DNA from: Bacteroidota bacterium | GTDB lineage: Bacteria; Bacteroidota; Bacteroidia; Chitinophagales; JADIYW01 | Assembly: GCA_020436225.1 (NCBI GenBank) | Contig: JAGQYE010000045.1 | Coordinates: forward strand, 1-54,270 | Direction of reading: 5' to 3' | Length of the DNA: 54,270 bases | Part shown: positions 586 to 5,489 of the stretch, one piece after another | Layout: each line of letters opens with the position of its first letter | Numbering within the stretch: the stretch's first letter is position 1 | The notes under the pieces: model-generated | What the model was told of the DNA's origin: nothing | Databases searched by the model: none | Seen by the model: only the letters and a program-made list of their open reading frames with translations | Translations under genes and position numbers: made by a program

Positions 586-1179
586 ATGCTTACTATTATT
601 ATTGCCATTGGAAGTCTTGTCGGATTAATTCTTGCAGGTTTATTCTTAATTTCTGTATTCAATAAATTTGTCAGTAACAAAAATATTGTAAAAGATGCCT
701 TCAGTAATATTGATGTCTTTCTCAAAAAGCGACATGACTTAATTCCCAATCTTGTCAATACCGTTAAAGGTTATGCCGAACACGAAAAAGATACACTTGA
801 ACGAGTCATTCAAGCGCGCAACCAAGCAATCAATGTATCTTCATCTACTGATATTAATGCACGCATTGCAGCAGAAAATACTCTTCAACAAGCACTTAGA
901 AGTATCTTTGCGCTGAGCGAAGCATACCCAAATTTAAAAGCCGATGCTTCATTTATAAATTTCCAAAATGAGCTTTCTCAACTTGAAGAAGAAATCAGCA
1001 GAAGCAGAAAATATTACAACGCAACAGTTCGAGATAACAACACCTATGGTGAAAGTTTTCCTGCAGTTTTATTTAAAAATATTTTTGGCTATCAACACTT
1101 TGATTTCTTTGAAGCAAATACTGAAGAAAGAGAAAATGTTACAGTTGATTTTTCTAAGTCTGAAGATAAAAATCAATGA
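586..1179 (+). CDS. lemA: LemA family membrane protein
   Basis: The 197-residue product has one N-terminal membrane helix (about residues 3-25) and then the LemA helical domain. The family hallmark 'KKRHDLIPNLVNTVKGYAEH' is at about residues 47-66, followed by 'RVIQARNQAI' and the 'RKYYNATVRDNNTY' segment near residue 140. Length fits the family (about 185-200). LemA proteins are membrane-anchored helical bundles whose biochemical role is unsettled. The stop overlaps the next start as ATGA, so the downstream DUF2207 protein is likely translationally coupled. This lemA-DUF2207 pairing recurs widely in bacteria and suggests the two act together at the envelope; that is inference. Confidence 0.93.
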   Translation: MLTIIIAIGSLVGLILAGLFLISVFNKFVSNKNIVKDAFSNIDVFLKKRHDLIPNLVNTVKGYAEHEKDTLERVIQARNQAINVSSSTDINARIAAENTLQQALRSIFALSEAYPNLKADASFINFQNELSQLEEEISRSRKYYNATVRDNNTYGESFPAVLFKNIFGYQHFDFFEANTEERENVTVDFSKSEDKNQ

Positions 1180-3212
1180 AAAAGATTGCATTATATTGTT
1201 CCTTTATTTTTGTTTTTTTGCTTTTGCTTTTTCATACAACTGCATTAACTCAACCACACGATAAACATATCAATTCATATCTTGATAGCATAAAAACCGT
1301 CCGAGAAAATGAAAATCGATTAAAAAATGAATATTTAAAATCCGAAGATGTCGTTGTAAAAAAATTTCACACGAAAATTGATTTATATCCGCAAGAAGGT
1401 TATTTTTTAGTGGAAGAAAATTATGACATACAATTTAATAAGGAAAGGCACGGAATTTATAGAAATATTCCTTTGGTTTATCAATTAAACAATGTAACAA
1501 CATCAACCCAACAAAATACAAACTCTAATAAATTTTGGGCACAGCAACCAAATGATTATAGAATTACGATAGATAAAATTGATGTACTAAATGAAACAAA
1601 TAGAATTTCTGGAGGTAGATTCACATCTACACTCAATATTCGCATTGGTGATGCCGATAAATATGTTTCAGGTGAAAAACACTATACTATAAAATATCGA
1701 GTAAAAAATGCCATTCTGTTTGACGATTCCGCATGTTATTTTTATTGGAATACGACAGGTTCATTTTGGGAATTTCCATTTTTAGAATCAAGCTTTGAGG
1801 TTCATATTCCTAATCAACCAAACATACAATATTATGTCTATAATGGCTATGTTGGCGAACATACTACTCAAGCACAATTTGAATATAAAGATGGTATCTT
1901 ATCCGGAAAATCAAACATTGTTTTAGGGCAAGGAAAGGATATGACTGTCTTACTCAAATTGCCTCCAACATATTTTAAACCACCTACAGCACTACAGTTA
2001 TGGTGGCGCAGTTACGGTTGGATAATTTTTCCATTTCTTGCATTTTTTATTTTCTTTTTGATATGGTTTATTTGGGGACGCGACAATAAACCGGTAAAAG
2101 TAGTTGAATATTTTCCTCCTAAAGATATTGACCCTGCATTGGCTGGCTATCTTACCGACACTGATGCTGATACAAAAGATATTTTATCTTTAATTCCATA
2201 TTGGGGTAAACAAGGATTTTTAAAAATAGAAAGTTTAAACAAAGAAGAAAAAACAGAAAAAAAATGGTATTCAATTTTTCCTTCATCTAATCCACAAGTT
2301 CACTTAGGATTTATTTATTTCTTTGGTTCAATTTTTGGGATTTATATCTTGTCAACATCACTGTCCCCAAATTATTTTTGGTATATAGTAAGCATAATTG
2401 GTGGCTTCTCTCCTTTTATTATTGTAGCATTAATTATTATTTATAAGAAAGCGAAAAGTATAAAACAAAATGATTTTAAATTGTATAAACTTCAAGAATT
2501 ACCTAATAATGTAAATCAATATGAAAATACCATATTTTACGGACTATTTAGCGAAGGAAATGTAATAAAAATGAGCAGTTTGAAGGATAAATTTTATTCA
2601 AAAATGATAAAAGCAAAATCAGAACTTGCTGATATAAGCAATAAAATGTTCTTCACAACCTATTCTAAAAAAATAGTAATTCTAACTGCAACCTTTTTTA
2701 TTTTATATGGAATGATAGGTGGCATTTTAGTGGCATCATTGTTAAATATTTTTGGTGGAGTTCTATTATTTCTTACCTGCATAGGATTAAGTTTCTTTTC
2801 AGGAATTATGCGTAAACGTGTGGTTGCCGGCGATGAGGCTTTACAAAAGGTAGAAGGATTTAGAATGTTTATTGAGAAAGCCAAAAAAGACGAGTTGACT
2901 TGGCTGTTAAAAGAAAATCCTAATTATTTCGACGACACACTTGCTTATGCTGTTGCTTTTGGTTTCGCAGATAAATACTGTAACAAATTTGAAGGCTTAA
3001 TAGCTAAAGCGCCTGAATGGTATGGAGGAAATTATTCGCATTTTTCTATGAGCAATTTTTCTACTTCTTTTAATGCTACGATGCTCAAAGCAAGTACTAC
3101 AATGGTTAGTAGTCCCGCATCATCAGGTAGTGGTGGTAGTTACGGTGGCGGATTTAGTGGTGGTGGATTTAGTGGCGGTGGCTTCGGCGGCGGCGGCGGC
3201 GGCTCTTGGTAG
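1176..3212 (+). CDS. DUF2207 domain membrane protein with Gly-rich C-terminus
   Basis: The 678-residue product begins with a signal-type hydrophobic segment (residues 5-22). An extracytoplasmic DUF2207 domain of about 200 residues follows ('EENYDIQFNKERHGIYRNIP' near residue 90). A membrane helix lies near residues 283-301, two more near 385-430 and a pair near 505-545. The tail is glycine-rich and ends in GGGGGGSW, a feature shared by many DUF2207 proteins, which often end in Gly runs after a 'TFGGGSFSGGG'-like stretch. The ATG overlaps the lemA stop (ATGA). The family has no established biochemical activity. The G-rich tail raises local GC sharply over the last 80 bp, but this is coding rather than a foreign insert. 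Confidence 0.88.
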   Translation: MKKIALYCSFIFVFLLLLFHTTALTQPHDKHINSYLDSIKTVRENENRLKNEYLKSEDVVVKKFHTKIDLYPQEGYFLVEENYDIQFNKERHGIYRNIPLVYQLNNVTTSTQQNTNSNKFWAQQPNDYRITIDKIDVLNETNRISGGRFTSTLNIRIGDADKYVSGEKHYTIKYRVKNAILFDDSACYFYWNTTGSFWEFPFLESSFEVHIPNQPNIQYYVYNGYVGEHTTQAQFEYKDGILSGKSNIVLGQGKDMTVLLKLPPTYFKPPTALQLWWRSYGWIIFPFLAFFIFFLIWFIWGRDNKPVKVVEYFPPKDIDPALAGYLTDTDADTKDILSLIPYWGKQGFLKIESLNKEEKTEKKWYSIFPSSNPQVHLGFIYFFGSIFGIYILSTSLSPNYFWYIVSIIGGFSPFIIVALIIIYKKAKSIKQNDFKLYKLQELPNNVNQYENTIFYGLFSEGNVIKMSSLKDKFYSKMIKAKSELADISNKMFFTTYSKKIVILTATFFILYGMIGGILVASLLNIFGGVLLFLTCIGLSFFSGIMRKRVVAGDEALQKVEGFRMFIEKAKKDELTWLLKENPNYFDDTLAYAVAFGFADKYCNKFEGLIAKAPEWYGGNYSHFSMSNFSTSFNATMLKASTTMVSSPASSGSGGSYGGGFSGGGFSGGGFGGGGGGSW

Positions 3213-3488: not shown

Positions 3489-4490
3489 TTAGGCATTAAG
3501 AAAATTTATCTTTCTATAATAAGACAATATGTATGTCTTTTTTGAAGTATTATTTAAAAACGAATGGTGTATCAATGTTTCTACTATTGGTTGTTTTTCT
3601 AAAAAAGGCTGTATTATCCTTTCAACTCTGTTCTCCATTACTCCGATACGTTTTGCAAATTCTACAAAATCCGCTTTAGCAGGATACGCATTCTTTTTAT
3701 ATGAACCGCTTCTGAAATCATCAGAAAACAATCCTTGCTCCAATGCAAAACCTGTATCATTAACATGAAGAGATGTATTAACTAAATCATAAGCCGGACT
3801 CAGAATATAATCACCTTTAGTTGTTTCCAATAATGAAAAGTTCTTCAAATGTGCGTCTCCGTTTGAAAAAACATAATTGAAAAGCACCAATGCAAAATAT
3901 TTTTCAATTTCCACTCTCCATGCAGGAACAAATTTCTGAATTAATTCACCTATTTCTTGATAACTATATTTATACTTAAAATCTGGACCAGCATTGTCTT
4001 TTGTTTTACCCGCCAATGATGCAAAATCTTCTTTTCCCCACTTTGTTTTATCATCCTTTACATCAAATCGTTTTGTTATATAAGCCGGAATGCCATTATT
4101 AAAAAAGATCATAGCATTTTCTGCCGTATTGATTTTATATACCTGCTTTGCAATTTGCATAGTTAAGTGTTCATTTGCAGGCACCTGTCCAACATTCTTT
4201 AAATCTCGTGGTATAGGTTTTAATATATAAGTACCTTGTTCTCCAAGATTAGTTAATCTTAAATTATTTTTATCTAAGAGTAAACTTAGTTTTTCCTGAA
4301 CACCTGATATGGAAATACGTTTACGATTTTCAAGAAACTGTTCAGAATCCGCATCATCTTTCATATACGCATAAGGTAAAACGTGATATACCTTCTTGCC
4401 ATTAAATACTGCACGTAAGCATTTTGGGCTATATGTATTAAAACCCTCGGCCAAAGTACCAGGACAATATTTTAAATCATCTATATTCAT
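3489..4490 (-). CDS. hipT: HipT-type Ser/Thr kinase toxin (HipA C-terminal kinase)
   Basis: The 333-residue product is a HipA-fold kinase lacking the usual HipA N-subdomain, which is encoded separately by the gene just upstream. The loop 'RISISGVQEK' (residues 59-68) carries a Ser-Ile-Ser pair at 60-62, matching the two-serine autophosphorylation motif described for enteropathogenic E. coli HipT. The catalytic loop 'NGDAHLKN' (D212) and the metal-binding 'SPAYD' (D235) are intact, so the kinase looks active. Family kinases phosphorylate aminoacyl-tRNA synthetases; the target here is unknown. The start chosen is the ATG overlapping the hipS stop as ATGA. An in-frame ATG 12 bp upstream (4502) is possible and would give a 16-bp overlap. 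The gene is last in a hipB-hipS-hipT operon. Confidence 0.88.
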   Translation of the reverse strand: MNIDDLKYCPGTLAEGFNTYSPKCLRAVFNGKKVYHVLPYAYMKDDADSEQFLENRKRISISGVQEKLSLLLDKNNLRLTNLGEQGTYILKPIPRDLKNVGQVPANEHLTMQIAKQVYKINTAENAMIFFNNGIPAYITKRFDVKDDKTKWGKEDFASLAGKTKDNAGPDFKYKYSYQEIGELIQKFVPAWRVEIEKYFALVLFNYVFSNGDAHLKNFSLLETTKGDYILSPAYDLVNTSLHVNDTGFALEQGLFSDDFRSGSYKKNAYPAKADFVEFAKRIGVMENRVERIIQPFLEKQPIVETLIHHSFLNNTSKKTYILSYYRKINFLNA

Positions 4491-4816
4491 TCGTTTGAAC
4501 ATGCTTTTACCGTTATTGCTCCAATAGTATCATATTGAGCAGTTGCTATTAGAAATCCGAAACTATCCTCTTCATCAATCTTCAATTGTATGCTCTGTAA
4601 CTTTTTATTTACACCTTCACTCAACATATTATAGAAGAATGGAAATAAATATTCAGAATTGTATTCCTGTTGTGATTTAGGAAGTGTTAAACTTATTGCC
4701 GGACAATTTGTATCATAAAAATATTTATCATCATATCTAAACAGATAGGAAGTTCTACTTTCTTCAGTTAGAGTACCTGCCAATAGCCCATTGCGATATA
4801 CATTTGCTTTTCGCAT
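4487..4816 (-). CDS. hipS: HipS-type protein (stand-alone HipA N-terminal subdomain)
   Basis: The 109-residue product corresponds to the HipA N-subdomain 1 (Couple_hipA). It opens with 'KANVYRNGLLAGTL', holds 'AISLTLPKSQQEY', then the hallmark 'FPFFYNMLSEG' and ends in 'FGFLIATAQYDTIGAI'. In ordinary HipA this domain is fused to the kinase; here it is a separate gene between hipB and the kinase. In the tripartite HipBST system of E. coli, HipS is the part that neutralises the HipT kinase, so an antitoxin role is the best inference. It starts 3 bp after the hipB stop and its stop overlaps the hipT ATG (ATGA), so the three genes should be made in coupled fashion. Confidence 0.87.
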   Translation of the reverse strand: MRKANVYRNGLLAGTLTEESRTSYLFRYDDKYFYDTNCPAISLTLPKSQQEYNSEYLFPFFYNMLSEGVNKKLQSIQLKIDEEDSFGFLIATAQYDTIGAITVKACSNE

Positions 4817-4819
4817 TTA

Positions 4820-5029
4820 TTACTTTGTTTTTATTACATCTACATTTAATTCCAATCCTAACACATTCAATAATTTATTTAATACAGAAAATGATGGATT
4901 TCCTTCTCCTTTCTCATACCTTATTACAGTGCCTTTAGTTACATTGGCTAATTCAGCTAAGTCCGTTTGGGTAATATCCAATTCGTTCCTTCTGTTTTTT
5001 AATACTATGCCTATTTCTATAAGGTTCAT
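4820..5029 (-). CDS. hipB: HipB-like XRE-family DNA-binding protein
   Basis: The 69-residue product is a compact helix-turn-helix protein: 'VLKNRRNELDITQTDLAELANVTKGTVIRYE' is split over two helices of the XRE fold, with 'GNPSFSVLNKLLNVLGLEL' completing the five-helix bundle. The open frame extends 54 codons further upstream, but that stretch is hydrophobic, Tyr/Ile-rich and translates the operator repeats, so the ATG at 5029 is chosen. In hip operons HipB represses its own promoter and may assist neutralisation of the kinase. The operator-like repeats at 5030-5171 immediately upstream fit autoregulation. Confidence 0.88.
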   Translation of the reverse strand: MNLIEIGIVLKNRRNELDITQTDLAELANVTKGTVIRYEKGEGNPSFSVLNKLLNVLGLELNVDVIKTK

Positions 5030-5171
5030 TATATCGAACTTTTGATGTAAAATTACTTCATTCTTAGGATTTATGCAAATAAAAGTTCGATATATAATAC
5101 TTTTAGTATAATAATAAGAAAAATGAAGAAGATAGGATATAAATAGTTCGATATAATATACTTTTGGTATA
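5030..5171 (-). promoter_or_regulatory. hipBST promoter/operator array
   Basis: Two 27-bp direct repeats lie at 5084-5110 and 5145-5171 (24 of 27 positions match by eye). Each begins AGTTCGATATA and ends in a palindrome, ATAC-N5-GTAT at 5097-5109 and TATAC-N5-GTATA at 5157-5171. The first 14 bases around the left repeat, AAAAGTTCGATATA (5081-5094), recur perfectly inverted at 5030-5043, abutting the hipB start codon. A near-consensus -7 box (TTTATTTG on the minus strand, 5076-5083) lies between the inverted copies. Repeats this close to an XRE repressor gene are most simply HipB operators; binding is not shown. Confidence 0.6.
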
Positions 5172-5258: not shown

Positions 5259-5302
5259 GGTGACCTAAAATGGAATAAAAAAAGGTCACCGAATAGGTCA
5301 CC
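5259..5302. repeat. Three copies of GGTGACC/GGTCACC
   Basis: GGTGACC occurs at 5259-5265 and its inverse GGTCACC at 5284-5290 and 5296-5302. The first copy can pair with either of the other two, giving two mutually exclusive 7-bp hairpins. The cluster lies between the hipBST operators and the tRNA-Ser terminator, upstream of hipB on its strand. Function is unknown; it could be a protein-binding site or part of a transcript upstream of hipB. Confidence 0.45.
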
Positions 5303-5348
5303 TAAATAATAAGATTTGTCGTACTTTTTGTGTTTTTGGTTTAACTAA

Positions 5349-5381: not shown

Positions 5382-5404
5382 AGTTGAATTTGAATAAGAA
5401 TCAG

Positions 5405-5489
5405 CAGAGAGAGAGGGATTCGAACCCCCGGACCTGTTACAGTCAACGGTTTTCAAGACCGCCGCATTCGACCGCTCTGCCATCTCTCT
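5405..5489 (-). tRNA. tRNA-Ser(TGA)
   Basis: The 85-nt minus-strand sequence folds as a class II tRNA. The acceptor stem AGAGAGA/TCTCTCT is perfect, the anticodon loop is CTTGAAA (anticodon TGA, reading UCN codons), there is a long variable arm, and the T loop is TTCGAAT. The discriminator base is G, as expected for serine. The CCA end is not encoded (the 3' flank reads CTGA). Confidence 0.96.

Follow-up and report, generated by a model that had tools for sequence, protein, structure and literature searches.

The stretch of DNA analyzed here (the window, 54,270 nucleotides of a Bacteroidota bacterium) very probably carries a type II toxin-antitoxin operon of the HipBST kind, complete and belonging to the Legionella/FCB branch, with a tryptophan-free HipS and a HipB that would repress the operon from three boxes (O1 to O3, Table 1). 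More tentatively, and with a little less credence than we would give to its negation, we propose that HipB and its array constitute an exchangeable control cassette used across the FCB superphylum, one that co-switches on different HipST lineages while it keeps a fixed, bridging 61-bp geometry and a proximal operator held under coding constraint.

Table 1. Coordinates in the window of the hipBST genes, the predicted control elements and the adjacent tRNA gene
Feature	Position	Strand	Description
hipT	3489..4490	minus	333 aa; HipA-like core Ser/Thr kinase without N-subdomain 1; Pfam HipA_C
hipS	4487..4816	minus	109 aa; HipA N-subdomain 1 homologue, predicted antitoxin
hipB	4820..5029	minus	69 aa; Cro/C1-type helix-turn-helix repressor, recognition helix region NVTKGTVIRYEKG
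O1 AGTTCGATATAATGAACC	5023..5040	minus	holds hipB start codon; predicted HipB operator
-7-like element TAATTTTA	5048..5055	minus	Bacteroidota-type promoter (assumed); between O1 and O2
-33-like element TTTG	5076..5079	minus	20 nt before the -7-like element
O2 AGTATTATATATCGAACT	5084..5101	minus	61 bp from O1; predicted HipB operator
O3 AGTATATTATATCGAACT	5145..5162	minus	122 bp from O1; predicted HipB operator
tRNA-Ser(TGA)	5404..5489	minus	ARAGORN; one border of the insertion site

Gene content and affinity of the hipBST operon

All three reading frames are intact, and the genes are coupled as the first-pass annotation had described: 3 bp separate the hipB stop from the hipS ATG, and the hipS stop and the hipT start share an ATGA. 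The start codons used are ATG 5029 for hipB and ATG 4490 for hipT; an alternative in-frame hipT ATG at 4502 would give a protein of 337 aa. The order hipB-hipS-hipT is found in essentially all close relatives, as are a SxSG P-loop and a HipS with a residue other than tryptophan at the plug position. HipT, the product of the sole HipA_C gene detected in the source genome, matched this Pfam domain (PF07804) at 1.3e-38, and the match spans the residues from the P-loop onward. HipS matched TIGR03071 couple_hipA (3.4e-25) and PF13657 (6.3e-19), and HipB matched HTH_3 (PF01381, 2e-15) and TIGR03070 couple_hipB (2.1e-15, although its 56.4 bits lie below the curated cut-off of 71.65). The AlphaFold2 model of HipT has a pLDDT of 89.8, the P-loop 60-63 being the sole segment below 50, and matched the HipT structures 7wcf and 7ab3 with Z 34.5 and 33.8. 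With tricistronic coupling, a HipT devoid of N-subdomain 1 that retains its P-loop and its catalytic and Mg-binding aspartates, a HipS homologous to that subdomain and a helix-turn-helix HipB, the operon is, judged from its sequence, an unexceptional representative of the HipBST family, and gene order, domains and HipT fold support the identification made in the first-pass annotation. The HipBA systems likewise combine a helix-turn-helix repressor, a HipA-like kinase core and palindromic promoter operators, but there the N-subdomain lies within the kinase, HipB is the antitoxin, and the fold match is clearly lower (Z 22-24).

The kinase motif Ser60-Ile-Ser62 and the catalytic D212 and D235 reported earlier are present (numbering from ATG 4490), and residues G63, Q65, K67, D212, N217 and D235 of HipT are invariant across 27 relatives. 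The gene for one HipT homologue (L019) contains an internal stop within the matched range. A decaying remnant without an active toxin is a most improbable description of the operon in the window. The patchy occurrence of hipBST, found in 2 of the 8 sampled genomes of the genus (source genome included), and its place beside a variable tRNA site would agree with decay, but the intact frames and the invariant catalytic residues speak against it, as do the substitution rates. The comparison with the nearest relative (92% in HipT) gave a dN of 0.039 and a dS of 0.32 for hipT, and dN/dS ratios of ~0.12 for hipT, ~0.24 for hipS and ~0.03 for hipB; since dN is far below dS in each of them, all three genes are under purifying selection.

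The operon had also been likened to E. coli HipBST. The separate genes, their order and the Ser-Ile-Ser motif bear this out, but the type does not, because the sequences are nearer to Legionella HipST and Trp65 is absent. Among solved structures, HipT was closest to Legionella HipT (E 1e-29), followed by E. coli O127 HipT (4e-12) and HipA (1e-5), and HipS was closer to the Legionella chain (4e-12) than to that of E. coli (6e-9), a kinship read from single-sequence comparisons with solved chains and not from a joint tree. Residues E67-G68-V69 of HipS align at E63-G64-W65 of E. coli HipS, and the Trp65 plug is thus missing. Trp65 is kept in many, yet not all, E. coli-type HipS proteins; in the SxS-type relatives this position was non-Trp wherever it was read. 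In E. coli, HipS inserts W65 at the P-loop of the kinase, and two phosphorylatable serines are present in HipT (PMC10627512); in Legionella, HipS lacks a tryptophan of this kind and HipT has a single serine (PMC10653801). The L. pneumophila operon (lpg2368-2370; PMC9325769, PMC10653801), which provides the closest solved relatives of both HipT and HipS, has these three genes in identical order and a HipS without the tryptophan plug; it differs in the single P-loop serine (S54), a trait of the Legionella protein, where the window and most relatives have two. The operon of E. coli O127:H6 (PMC6581861, PMC10627512) shares the three genes and their order, the Ser-Ile-Ser motif, and the length and fold of HipT, but it is more distant in sequence and has the tryptophan that is missing here. 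An operon of the E. coli O127 type, in which HipS would plug the kinase via its tryptophan and HipT would phosphorylate TrpS, is therefore unlikely: gene order, serine motif and an equally good fold (Z 33.8 to 7ab3) can be cited for it, whereas the nearer Legionella sequences and the Val69 at the plug position tell against it, and TrpS does not rescue Legionella HipT (PMC10653801). Its sequence places the operon nearer to the Legionella type, the E. coli type being the more distant of the two.

The Bacteroidota homologues split into two clades. In the clade of the window, a P-loop of the form S[IVL]SG goes together with a non-Trp HipS. The second clade (L005-L007, L058-L063) has the same three-gene layout and repeated boxes before hipB, but its P-loops differ (e.g., SVPG, ALTG, TVPG), its HipS reads IPEGW, and its HipT is 30-40% identical. 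The different serine and tryptophan pairings of the two clades indicate that the Trp plug is a trait separable from the double serine, a separation that corresponds to one deep split within the sample and not to many independent events. We infer that HipT would be toxic and that HipS, as a detached HipA N-subdomain, would neutralize it by binding beside the P-loop and keeping ATP from binding, with no need of the tryptophan on which the E. coli protein relies; why HipS could neutralize a double-serine HipT in this manner is open to test with these proteins.

Three boxes at 61-bp spacing around the hipB promoter

The first-pass annotation had described two 27-bp repeats with TATAC-N5-GTATA palindromes and, as a separate element, a perfect 14-bp inverted repeat that abuts the hipB ATG. 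Both repeats, TATACCAAAAGTATATTATATCGAACT (5145-5171) and TATACTAAAAGTATTATATATCGAACT (5084-5110), are present, 61 bp apart, but the full palindrome exists only in the distal one, the nearer one reading TATAC-N5-GTATT. The perfect 14-bp inverted match (5030-5043/5081-5094) also exists and ends at the hipB ATG, but it is not an element of its own: the arm next to the ATG is part of a third box, GTTCGATATAATGAAC (5024-5039), which continues the 61-bp spacing. When the relatives were compared side by side, the conserved unit was a 16-18-bp box composed of a half-site, a TATA-like centre and an inverted half-site; TATAC-N5-GTATA was not kept in the relatives and was dropped as the operator. O1, O2 and O3 of the window are spaced exactly 61 bp apart and are built on the half-site GTTCGA. 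Hence, the notion that the operon has its own operator array was right in substance, but its boxes had been misparsed, and it is the half-site sequence alone that is private to the window, the architecture being common to the relatives. In O2 and O3 the half-site is perfect on one side only (TCGAAC); the 5′ halves of these boxes (5084-5110, 5145-5171) read GTAT instead of GTTC, which produces the overlapping TATAC-N5-GTAT palindrome.

The spacing was recovered from the relatives without any motif. Of the 70 homologous loci, 62 had a promoter whose best match to itself lay at a shift of 61 or 122 bp (each within 2), and the same shifts were obtained in 7.9% of shuffled promoters and in 7 of 67 neighbouring stretches further upstream, so that the 61/122-bp self-similarity is beyond chance. 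In 58 of 64 loci O1 stands in precisely this register to the hipB ATG, and among the scored class A and class B relatives (see below) a spacing of 61 or 62 bp was found between O1 and O2 in 54/57 and between O2 and O3 in 39/40. In the second Bacteroidota clade the period is 40-41 bp (~four helical turns) and the boxes resemble TATACC-N6-GGTATA: TATACCCGAAAAGGTATA-like boxes upstream of hipB reach the hipB start in L058-L063 and L006, and L005 and L007 have GCATATAA-like boxes instead.

Between O1 and O2 lie TAATTTTA and TTTG, which we take to be the -7 and -33 elements of a Bacteroidota-type promoter; in 44 of 64 loci a TAnnTTT motif stands at position -27 or -26 relative to the hipB ATG. With these elements as the promoter, transcription is predicted to begin at the border of O1, ~12 nt ahead of the hipB ATG. 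O1 would thus cover this start site as well as the start codon, and with O2 lying just upstream of the -33-like element, complexes bound to the two boxes would bracket the promoter and shut off transcription. Legionella HipB binds three evenly spaced operators, both alone and with HipT/HipS (PMC10653801), and by analogy we infer that HipB dimers, alone or with HipT/HipS attached, would bind O1, O2 and O3 and repress the operon. The likeness to Legionella is one of layout (three evenly spaced boxes); in Legionella O1 lies 24 nt upstream of the ATG and the gaps are of 53 bp (~71-bp period), whereas in the window the ATG falls within O1 and the boxes repeat every 61 bp. According to Lin 2023 (PMC10653801), the E. 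coli promoter lacks the operator motifs of Legionella. Since 61 bp is about six helical turns, the boxes would lie roughly on one face of the DNA, a placement that is approximate (5.8 turns at 10.5 bp/turn). The periods of 40-41, 61 and ~71 bp are all near whole helical turns, which suggests a bridging of the bound complexes along one DNA face.

The FCB superphylum has already been reported to harbour widespread homologues of Legionella-type HipBST (Lin 2023, PMC10653801), so that the presence of HipBST in Bacteroidota is not new. The earlier view that a Bacteroidota version with a distinct operator is uncharacterized therefore holds for the operator only: in the literature we found HipBST operators described in Legionella only, and no description of a three-box 61-bp array. 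The regulatory architecture is clear, shared across the FCB superphylum and apparently undescribed. The ~70 promoters form a ready set, with two well-populated natural classes of HipB specificity and a third in the window, that combines a fixed spacing with an operator doubling as the start codon of its own repressor, and on which one can test directly how HipB reads DNA and whether HipBST bridges its operators.

Box letters and the HipB recognition helix

The letters of the boxes vary with the recognition helix of HipB. In class A, a helix like NTLYKLERG pairs with ATCACATTATAATGTGAT (half-site ATCACA); in class B, a helix like GLRTLKxLESG pairs with AGTGCATTATAATGCACT (half-site AGTGCA); the window, with KGTVIRYEKG and GTTCGA, is a third class. 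When only O2 and O3, which are non-coding, were scored, helix class and box class agreed in 62/63 loci, a figure that is descriptive because the consensus boxes were derived from the same loci; at the one discordant locus (L047) the two box classes scored equally or almost equally. About seven changes of helix class are needed on the HipT tree, which indicates that HipB and its boxes were repeatedly exchanged or re-specified relative to the kinase. The co-switching amounts to three independent contrasts on well-supported branches (seven on all branches), all or nearly all of them concordant, and these are too few for a significant sign test.

Whether relatives carry the same operator upstream of hipBST, as the first-pass annotation had suggested looking for, has a divided answer: the geometry is common, but the half-site class of the window was not found again. 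A search of 395 Bacteroidota genomes with the exact proximal box yielded no second independent hipBST of this class, and with up to one mismatch 13 genomes had matches, the reversed-pattern control giving a similar handful. In the closest relative (92% in HipT) one contig starts inside hipB and another ends at tRNA-Ser.

The start codon within O1 leaves its mark on the box. At this position a flawless class A box would give ATG-TGA, i.e., Met followed by a stop. ATGTGA was found in the 3′ half of O1 in 0/40 class A loci, most of which have ATGTTA (Met-Leu), and in 33/66 of the O2 and O3 boxes. All 18 of 18 class B HipBs start with Met-His, because O1 reads ATGCAC, and in the window the mismatch of the O1 half-site (ATGAAC for TCGAAC) is likewise attributable to the start codon. 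The coding constraint on O1 is thus visible in the sequence itself.

The boxes might alternatively owe their likeness to descent and to a promoter that was recently duplicated in tandem, without being HipB sites. The intergenic DNA is AT-rich, the repeats have simple centres and the related loci share ancestry, all of which such an origin would lead one to see. However, the box letters switch along with the recognition helix of HipB, irrespective of HipT descent, and neither the 61-bp spacing nor the ATG register changes; we regard duplication of this kind as very unlikely. Very probably, HipB and its boxes evolve as one unit that keeps its geometry and changes its letters.

Genomic setting

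In the window the operon follows tRNA-Ser(TGA) and is followed by a TPM-like gene (1176-3212; assignment by eye from the translation), which is convergent with hipT and encodes 678 aa with a Gly-rich tail (GGGGGGSW). This 678-aa protein was not found in the seven other genomes of the genus. In G008, a genome of the same genus without hipBST, tRNA-Ser(TGA) is directly followed by a DUF58/MoxR operon, and in G002 hipBST is followed by a DUF58/MoxR operon, on a contig that begins within hipB (both read by eye from translations). This arrangement fits a small cassette gained (or lost) beside the tRNA gene; no attachment repeats were identified at the tRNA-Ser site. Two further genomes of the genus (G005 and G007) have other genes at this site.

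A HipT-like match at E 1e-20 was found in 78 of 394 Bacteroidota genomes. None of the phage records matched HipT, and a few plasmids (Runella, Flammeovirga) match parts of it. Two HipT relatives (L114 and L115; 53% and 50%) lie on contigs classed as viral in IMG/VR. One genome (G223) has two very similar hipBST operons (L040 and L113, on contigs C7 and C10), and each of them has a further, distant HipT-like gene no more than ~26 kb away. Finally, three copies resembling GGTGACCT/GGTCACC, two of them around a T run, are located at 5259-5306 of the window, between tRNA-Ser and the hipB promoter.
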